DNA from: Clavaria fumosa
Lineage: Eukaryota; Basidiomycota; Agaricomycetes; Agaricales; Clavariaceae
Direction: 5' to 3'
Assembly: GCA_951802425.1 (NCBI GenBank)
Contig: OX637799.1
Span: 3,100,001 to 3,164,000 of the forward strand
Length of the DNA: 64,000 bases
Shown piece after piece: positions 47,624 to 49,181 of the stretch (positions are counted from its first letter, which is position 1; each line of letters starts with the position of its first letter). The notes below the pieces were generated by a model. The model searched no databases, had not been told where the DNA came from, and was given only the letters and a program-made list of their open reading frames with translations. A program made the translations under genes and the position numbers.

Positions 47624-49181
47624 CTAATCATGTTGAGTTAGTAGCCAACGACCGCCAAGAATTTCGGGACCGAGCCATACCCTGGCCTCGGGGGCATTGA
47701 AAACCAGTGTGTTGGAACATTTCGGGTTTCCACATGCAAACAATTGAGAAAGTTCAGGGCCACTGGCTGAGACCCATGCTCTGATACACCCACACCGGCT
47801 GCACTGCACAGGGAGCTGGTGTCCCCATGGTCGCAGATCAGGATGAACCCATGTGTAGCAATTTCCTCGGACTTGCCCATTTACTGTACGGATATGAACG
47901 ATGTCGGTGTGTCAGCAAATCGCAGAGGTAGTCAGAAGCAGATGTCGGAAACAGTCCTCGAGTGCGAATTTTTCAACCAAGACTTGCTGAGCATATCCGA
48001 TGATAAACCCCACCATGAGGCAAGGCTGTAACTCAGCTGCAGTAAATGCAACGACATTAAGGACTGAAAGTCTGCAGAAACATGTGAATACATGTCCAAT
48101 TTCATGCTGCAATAACTTACTGCTTGGTGATCTCAGCCAGCTCGGCATAGCTTGAGGCGTTCCTGACCAAAGCGCCGCAAGACATCATCCACAGTGTGGT
48201 ATCGCATTCTTTAAGAAACGATGTGTATTGAGATGGAAGGAGCAAGTTGAGGACCTGTTACACTTAACTTCAGCCAACCCACGTTGCACATGCAATGAAC
48301 CACTCACATGTTTAACAGAACCGCACAACGTCAGTGCCAGGAATAAGTCGCCTGTGTCTTCGTGTGAGTGGTTTGTTACGAAGATGAGGACACGGGGATG
48401 GGTATGCCTACAATGATTAGTACAACCACATTTGCAGCATAAATTGACTTACTTGATACGATCGGATAGACTTTGCATCTTGGCAACATGAGCCTTGATG
48501 CCAGCATCGTCACCCAAATCGAATACAATCTCTTCGTAGAACAACAGCGATGACTCCAAATATGCTCGCATATACTCCACCAGGATCACAGCAGGGGATC
48601 CTGCGCTGTCCAAACCATGAAGAATAAAATGAAGGACAGTTAGACCTTCATTGCTGACATGGGAGGCAGCGGTCATTTGGAAGTTGCCAACAACAGTGAG
48701 ATGCGAAGGAAATGCTGGTTTTAACGAATTTGGATTGAGCTTTTCGTCGACAAGCTCAAGACCTTTGTGAATGTAGAAACCCTGTCTGATTTTAGAACAG
48801 CTGGGCAGAGAAAATGAATGTAAAGGACGCACGTAATAGGGCTGTAGCGTGGGCCCTTTGAACGCCTGCGAGTGGCAGTAAAGGCAAAGGAACCTAAGTT
48901 GTTCATAGCTTTCAATTGTCGGTGGAATTGCGATGCACTTGTTGCAGAGTGCTTGCGAGCAGCGGTCACAAATGACGAGATGACCGCCATTCAGACACAT
49001 GTAACAATACTACGGTTGGTTAGCACAGTTGCTTGGCAGGTAAGCAGTGAATACGTACCTGCTCACCCCCACTTTCATGACTGTGCAAAATCTGGGGAGG
49101 CGGGAGTGATCCAACGCCAGGGTTTACCCGTAGAGCGCATCCACCTGTACTCTTTTTTGGTGTCTGTTTAGTTCGGGCCAT
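47624..49181 (-). CDS. PHD-finger protein with histone H3 tail mimic
   Basis: Exon 1 (49181-49059) encodes [14 protein letters not shown], matching histone H3 ([14 protein letters not shown]) at 12 of 14 residues, then diverges ([10 protein letters not shown]). Exon 2 (49009-48453) begins with a cross-brace zinc finger of PHD type: CYMC, CDRC, CNKC and CLYC pairs, with the GGHLVICDRC core. PHD fingers commonly read the H3 N-terminus. Later exons (48407-48308 and on) contain VLIFVTNHSHEDTGDLF and TLWMMSCGALV, a His and a Cys spaced as in caspase/CHAT-like peptidases (tentative), then a C-terminal Cys cluster CSRCGC...ACGNPKC. One TGA at 47914-47912 interrupts the last exon; it may be a mutated Arg codon. 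Splice sites around 48307-48210 are uncertain. The protein is cargo of the 14.8-kb element. Confidence 0.75.

Follow-up and report, generated by a model that had tools for sequence, protein, structure and literature searches.

A histone H3-like N-terminus joined to a PHD-type finger in a protein family carried by TET-bearing KDZ transposons

A Kyakuja-like element and its tail-mimic gene

The window, a 64,000-nucleotide stretch of the Clavaria fumosa genome (contig OX637799.1, positions 3,100,001 to 3,164,000 of the forward strand), contains a whole Kyakuja-like, TET-bearing KDZ transposon of 14,798 bp (39491..54288; termini 5'-CACACC...GGGCTG-3'). Its ends are set exactly by a duplicated target, the 7-bp sequence AGATAGT at 39484..39490 on the left and 54289..54295 on the right. 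Its two arms are long (sub)terminal inverted repeats (left, 39491..41488, with internal tandem repeats; right, 52910..54288) that are 89–95% complementary. The exons of a KDZ transposase are on the plus strand (42466..45306; Pfam KDZ PF18758, 4.2e-25 on 44069-44428, above cut-off). On the minus strand are a TET/JBP dioxygenase gene (45970..46840), the tail-mimic gene (47624..49181), and a further uncharacterised gene delimited by open reading frames (49767..52108), which has a repeat-rich acidic/Asn-rich stretch and no Pfam match above cut-off. The TET gene is 2.3 kb downstream of the tail-mimic gene and on the same strand; with exons joined by hand, it matches Tet_JBP of Pfam at 3.8e-9 (36.4 bits versus a cut-off of 34.9), and it lacks ∼256 bp of coding sequence found in four other copies. 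Thus, the tail-mimic gene lies inside a 14.8-kb element flanked by a 7-bp target duplication, as expected from an earlier note on this DNA that took it to be transposon-encoded.

In the sections of the Kyakuja paper considered here, these elements have CA..TG termini and 7-bp target duplications, which the window element shares along with a KDZ transposase and a TET/JBP gene, whereas terminal inverted repeats are reported absent for two Laccaria families (Kojima 2025, PMC12730594). The long inverted repeats of the window element may be a family-level trait. Its termini and target duplication are the basis for calling it Kyakuja-like, rather than assigning it to Zisupton or Dileera. Further KDZ transposase matches lie outside the element at 54418-54804 and 59205-59585, on the plus and minus strands, indicating that other KDZ elements adjoin it.

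The tail-mimic gene has six exons on the minus strand (49181-49059, 49009-48833, 48781-48453, 48407-48308, 48254-48121, and 48071-47624), separated by five introns of 49, 51, 45, 53, and 49 nt that are GT-AG throughout in the window copy, a layout repeated in the related subfamily B. Translation from the ATG at 49181 (minus) opens with the H3-tail mimic (codons 1-18, 49128..49181), whose sequence and strand are as the earlier note had described them. Exon 1 ends cleanly at a GTACGT donor after 49059 and, past the acceptor before 49009, the next exon opens YCYMCLNGGHLVICDRC and encodes the finger. This exon 1-to-finger splice, also proposed in the earlier note, is predicted to occur as modelled on the grounds of the sequence and its conservation between copies and subfamilies. 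The encoded architecture is an H3-tail mimic, a linker, a PHD/ADD-like finger, an alpha/beta domain with a His/Cys pair, and a zinc ribbon. Histone families are absent among the Pfam matches of the protein, indicating that no histone fold follows the tail.

Subfamily A consists of five nearly identical copies (the window copy, L009, L011, L015, and L017) within the 48.8-Mb genome, and three of these (L009, L011, and L017) are open over 436 aa under the six-exon model. Intron 2 of copy L009 no longer has its GT, copy L015 has a frameshift in the tail-mimic gene, and the window copy is interrupted by an in-frame TGA (47912..47914, minus) located 3' of the conserved His and Cys and 5' of the zinc ribbon. 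The window copy is also without 1.3–1.7 kb at 49259, 78 bp 5' of the ATG; the segment is present in the other four copies and is possibly the promoter. The family has intact members, but the window copy itself has decayed. Its broken state, the His/Cys domain and zinc ribbon, and the breadth of the family are points absent from the earlier note.

None of the five subfamily A copies has an in-frame ATG between the preceding stop and the MART start, so translation must start at MART. A misassigned start is ruled out for subfamilies A and D, both of which are without an upstream in-frame ATG. In subfamily B, an in-frame ATG lies 14 codons upstream of the tail start and makes the start there less certain.

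Occurrence and conservation of the H3-like tail

Across the 48.8-Mb genome, a 20-base pattern for MA(R)TKQT occurs in 10 places, which correspond to two H3 genes and eight family members. A looser tail pattern occurs in 46 places (reversed control, 0), of which 5 are in subfamily A, 3 in D, 18 in F, 13 in H, 4 in G, 2 in the H3 genes, and 1 unassigned. The pattern MARNKQT, of subfamily B, occurs in 18 places genome-wide (reversed control, 0). The scans and their empty controls rule out a chance resemblance to H3. The tail is present in six divergent subfamilies (A, B, D, F, G, and H) and, against two H3 genes, there are 62 non-histone tail starts, 57 of which have a finger downstream (F 17/18, H 12/13, G 4/4, A 5/5, D 3/3, and B 16/18, the last scored by eye). 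The tail sequence itself was read at two loci of F and at one locus each of G and H. Subfamily B, which is 62% identical to A, replaces T3 with Asn and K9 with Arg, and subfamily F starts MPRTKQ; these changes may alter binding by the finger. The tail of subfamily H is MARTKQSAKRSSGA. A fourth D-like place (C1:4830798) is not matched by the tail pattern.

Other traces of the tail are scattered in the genome. One more ATG start, coding MARTKQC at G000:C10:2242540, is unassigned to a subfamily. Four A-type fragments (L039, L042, L043, and L046) that are 85–95% identical include the tail and finger to about residue 150 and continue directly into DNA homologous to window 4228-5418; in L039, there is a premature stop inside the tail.

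Protein searches added 26 members of the family, from other fungi or from metagenomes, and the named genera that were checked represent three orders of Agaricomycetes: Irpex and Earliella (Polyporales), Pisolithus (Boletales), and Mycena and Coprinopsis (Agaricales). Where entries have database names, these are hypothetical or uncharacterised. All 26 have the H3-like tail (weakest in P0022 and P0025, with 8/21 and 12/21 residues identical to H3), a count that favours tail-bearing proteins because the search was seeded with five-residue words in common and with profiles covering the tail. Less biased are subfamilies A, B, G, and H, which were found via the finger or domain and had the tail then read upstream; C and E were found likewise and are without a tail. 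A similar tail in other copies, on which the earlier note had staked its proposal, is therefore present in five near-identical copies, five further subfamilies, and other fungi.

Annotations of these proteins vary. Twelve of the 26 are annotated with a start upstream of the tail, and some annotated members (e.g., P0009, P0011, and P0023) are without the finger or part of it, perhaps owing to faults in gene models. In P0012, P0017, P0024, and P0025, the linker has a second H3-like motif (e.g., VPKRSAGGPAPRGN and TPKQAAGGCALHAN), which looks as if it were a duplicated tail segment around H3 9-17. Tail-only matches among the 31 search hits were left out, namely 13 mammalian multi-histone proteins (P0027-P0039), P0040, and P0041. 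Of these, P0040, a predicted protein of the oomycete Phytophthora cinnamomi, has an H3-like start followed by a weak Chromo match (0.021, below cut-off) and could possibly be an independent fusion of an H3 tail and a reader.

Conservation is uneven along the tail. Per-position identity to H3 was counted in 29 sequences (26 from databases plus A, B, and D; 23 distinct tails). Identity is 28/29 at each of A1, R2, and T3, 26 at K4, 27 at Q5, 23 at T6 and A7, 11 at R8, 22 at K9, 11 at S10, 25 at T11, 27 at G12, 23 at G13, 9 at K14, 22 at A15, 23 at P16, 22 at R17, 3 at K18, 4 at Q19, and 22 at L20. Positions 1-7, 11-13, 15-17, and 20 are kept, with 1-5 nearly fixed, and R8, S10, K14, and K18, which are usual acceptor sites of H3, are free to vary. 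Positions 1-5 are those that PHD/ADD fingers contact. Family proteins are 20–46% identical, and the tail is among their most conserved parts: in 23 non-redundant proteins, consensus averages 0.89 over tail residues 2-8 and 0.74 over 2-18, compared with 0.34 in the adjoining linker and 0.42 in the rest, in an alignment of sequences trimmed to the tail beforehand, which helps the alignment of the tail. A seemingly fully conserved linker Pro is an alignment artefact, judging by residue contexts. Between subfamilies A and B, dN is 0.18 and dS is 1.43 over the 20 tail codons, dN is 0.55 in the next stretch, and dS is saturated over the whole gene. Changes among the near-identical A copies look neutral, as expected for recent insertions.

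These patterns indicate purifying selection on the tail stretch that PHD/ADD fingers contact. A histone-tail sequence in a non-histone protein, maintained by selection, makes this protein a histone mimic. We are nearly certain of the family and its conserved tail, and the tail probably matters to the dealings of the element with host chromatin, since it was kept while most of the protein changed.

The all-Cys PHD/ADD-like finger that follows (residues 43-86; 48875..49006, minus) was recognised from matches to solved fingers and from the family profile. The first 100 residues of the window protein have 57 matches, the best of which is CHD4 PHD1 (2l5u; 2e-6), with TRIM66, TRIM24, PHF21A, TRIM33, SP140, the ATRX ADD, CHD4 PHD2, and AIRE also represented, along with some weaker matches of other kinds (e.g., Spp1 and NSD2). 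Most of the top matches are readers of unmodified H3K4. The finger scores below the gathering threshold of Pfam PHD (PF00628; 7.3 bits versus 24), as does the best in the family (19.6 bits; P0021). Among the best 60 of 249 matches of the family profile, 3a1b, an H3.1-DNMT3A ADD fusion, is aligned across both tail and finger (3.6e-9), and histone H3 is matched on the tail alone. The window protein is weakly similar to 2l43, an H3.3-linker-BRD1 fusion (0.13). These alignments imply that a tail and a reader can be built on one chain. The finger is of the PHD/ADD type, significantly similar to solved H3-reading fingers and itself a predicted reader, which agrees with the PHD-type finger of the earlier note.

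The His/Cys domain and association with TET

The alpha/beta domain has two conserved residues: a His at residue 223 of the 436-aa form (...IFVTNHSHEDTGDLF; 48368..48370, minus) and a Cys at residue 269 (...LWMMSCGALV; 48177..48179, minus). They are embedded in motifs ...THSDExRGDLF and ...LLxCGxxV. The His is in 21 of 23 proteins, the exceptions being one gap (P0025) and one fragment (P0026), and the Cys is in all 22 of the 23 that have that stretch. Protein P0018, a near-duplicate left out of the 23, is without the His in its annotated form. The two residues are 45–46 apart and each ends a hydrophobic stretch; in an aligned set of C. fumosa CHAT proteins, the spacing is 41. At the motif level, a His and a Cys that each terminate one of two adjacent hydrophobic strands, with 40-odd residues between them, are the arrangement of caspase-like (clan CD) peptidases. 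Profiles give a different answer. The hhalign probabilities for the His/Cys domain are 1% against C. fumosa CHAT and 0.3% against C14 peptidases, and searches of PDB, Pfam, and NCBIfam with the domain returned no match. A caspase or CHAT relative is unsupported by these comparisons and survives as a motif-level guess. We give a cysteine hydrolase slightly better than even chances, and the motif suggests that, if so, it would probably be of caspase-like type. The C-terminal zinc ribbon (47718..47803, minus) has a CxxC...C...C pattern with Cys in columns 401 and 406, matches no Pfam family, and lies downstream of the TGA in the window copy.

Family genes are associated with TET genes. Of 52 family loci, 29 have a TET match at a distance of up to 5 kb, against a chance of about 1.3% per locus. 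By subfamily, the numbers are 5/5 for A, 3/3 for D, 5/5 for E, 15/21 for B, 1/13 for C, and 0/5 for A'. Because locus C6:675813 carries a B tail upstream, it was counted as B and not C, leaving the total of 29/52 unchanged. At most subfamily C loci, TET is over 5 kb away. At the one subfamily B locus examined, the order of tail gene, TET, and KDZ is retained.

In subfamilies C and E, the sequence read at five loci and at L059 and L033 shows no detectable tail, its best match of 6–7/20 being equal to background. Subfamily C has Gln in place of His and Gly in place of Cys, and E keeps the His and has Ser in place of Cys (L048, L033, and L059 read). In a tree of 20 sequences, from which short or duplicate ones were left out, C and E form one clade (100/98) that is nested, together with A and B (100/99), within the tail-bearing proteins. 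Thus, the tail and Cys were lost together once, which as a single event on the tree amounts to n=1. At loci of subfamily D (L012, L014, L016, and L059), one TET gene is located between two family genes: a convergent D gene with tail, His, and Cys on one side and an E gene with no tail and Ser for Cys on the other. Judging by these residues, the genes beside one TET resemble an active/inactive pair.

A proposed self-read tail and its alternatives

The family comprises fast-evolving proteins carried by TET-bearing KDZ transposons of the Kyakuja type. We suggest that the finger reads the unmodified H3 N-terminus and that its first ligand would be the tail of its own protein, either in cis or on a second molecule. 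With the tail bound, the His/Cys domain would be kept inactive or in a storage form. A silenced element would sit on chromatin without H3K4 methylation, where free H3 tails would compete for the finger, displace the mimic, and allow the effector to act locally, beside the TET enzyme oxidising methylcytosine. The element would thereby encode a two-part anti-silencing module, with TET directed against DNA methylation and the tail-mimic protein against H3-based silencing. We assign this explanation as a whole a probability of roughly 0.45. For its parts, self-reading is about evenly balanced, and an anti-silencing role is somewhat favoured.

Self-reading fits the pairing of a tail copy with a reader, the pattern of retained H3 positions, and the disappearance of tail and Cys from the same clade. 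The earlier note had offered auto-inhibition, self-assembly, or titration of host enzymes as functions. The first two appear best supported, given that positions 1-7, 11-13, 15-17, and 20 are kept and R8, S10, K14, and K18 are free. The same freedom makes titration of K9 enzymes the weaker proposal, even with K4 (26/29) and K9 (22/29) mostly kept.

Titration is one form of a broader alternative, in which the exposed ARTKQTA tail serves as a decoy or hook. Host H3-tail proteins, such as K4/K9 methyltransferases, LSD1-type demethylases, and K4me0 readers, would bind or modify it and be titrated or recruited to the element, and the finger would separately read host H3. Histone mimicry directed at host readers is well established, the N-terminus is free, K4 and K9 are among the kept residues, and the MPRTKQ start of subfamily F recalls the SNAG motif that enters LSD1. 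But K9 methyltransferases, kinases, and acetyltransferases need R8, S10, K14, and K18, which are not kept, and subfamily B has Arg at K9. A decoy also leaves unexplained why, in complete members, the tail is constantly paired with a reader-type finger. We regard it as the less likely explanation, at lower odds than self-reading.

Two further proposals make the His/Cys domain a protease. Similarity to H3 stops near L20 (22/29), close to the known H3 clipping site after A21. Moreover, A15, P16, and R17 are kept in 22–23 of 29 sequences despite variation at K14, K18, and Q19, and thus form a second block outside the part bound by fingers. A protease that clips H3 near residues 20-21 could have, in a mimic ending at L20, a built-in product or pseudosubstrate inhibitor. 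The near-invariant His and Cys, 45–46 residues apart (41 in the CHAT alignment) and each at the end of a hydrophobic stretch, would suit such an enzyme, but fold searches (hhalign, PDB, and NCBIfam) give no support, and we consider the idea improbable. Marginally less so, though still unlikely, is a chromatin-gated transposon protease: the protein's own H3 tail would be the inhibitor or pseudosubstrate, the finger would read H3K4me0 on silenced chromatin, and the enzyme, once activated there, would cut silencing factors or the tails of H3 in coordination with TET. If true, one polypeptide of a mobile element would unite a copy of a histone substrate, a reader, and an eraser.

A passive relic of a long-ago captured H3 exon is easily imagined, as the first exon of host H3 stops at the same 14-residue stretch, but similarity passes that exon border to L20 and the tail is among the most conserved parts of proteins that are 20–46% identical, with synonymous codon change, and this rules out a functionless tail for practical purposes.

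A transposon family that retains an exact H3 N-terminus together with an H3 reader and a likely effector, in numerous copies spanning three orders of Agaricomycetes, would be evidence that mobile elements counter silencing through histones as well as DNA methylation. The natural variants (K9R, T3N, A1P, and loss of the tail) offer a means to test which H3 positions matter.

Known examples of histone mimicry come from pathogens and from host regulators, and anti-silencing proteins carried singly by transposons are also known. The founding KDZ-TET paper, by Iyer and colleagues in 2014, is said to mention additional proteins in its abstract, including one with an HMG domain. For VANC, a protein of Arabidopsis VANDAL elements, we know of no H3 mimic. 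The earlier note knew of no transposon protein of this design, and no such protein was found at the level of titles and listings in the open-licence literature searched. A tail-mimic or PHD protein is not mentioned in the examined sections of the Kyakuja paper, nor found in it by word search (PMC12730594). Like VANC, the tail-mimic protein would be an element-encoded counter to silencing, a function that is here predicted; unlike it, VANC is described as sequence-specific in the portions of the papers considered (PMC5735166, PMC10398659).

Among host proteins, the closest likeness in mechanism is DNMT3A, for which the consulted part of the literature describes an ADD domain that blocks its own enzyme until released by H3K4me0 (PMC10393158), as proposed here for the finger; DNMT3A has no built-in H3 copy and its enzyme differs. 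The PHD finger of BAZ2B binds H3 less well in the presence of an H3-like linker, an intramolecular H3 mimic competing for the finger, but according to the part consulted, this linker is lysine-rich, has no exact H3 N-terminus, and belongs to a host protein (PMC5663869). In sequence, the finger is similar to CHD4 PHD1, the TRIM24, TRIM66, and TRIM33 fingers, PHF21A, and the ADD domains of ATRX and DNMT3A, and has eight Cys as in ADD; unlike these readers, it follows a copy of its own ligand on one chain and is transposon-encoded. The same order of an H3 tail ahead of a reader finger is present in 3a1b and 2l43. These are laboratory constructs, whereas the tail-mimic protein is natural and conserved, a natural counterpart of the H3-reader fusions made by structural biologists.
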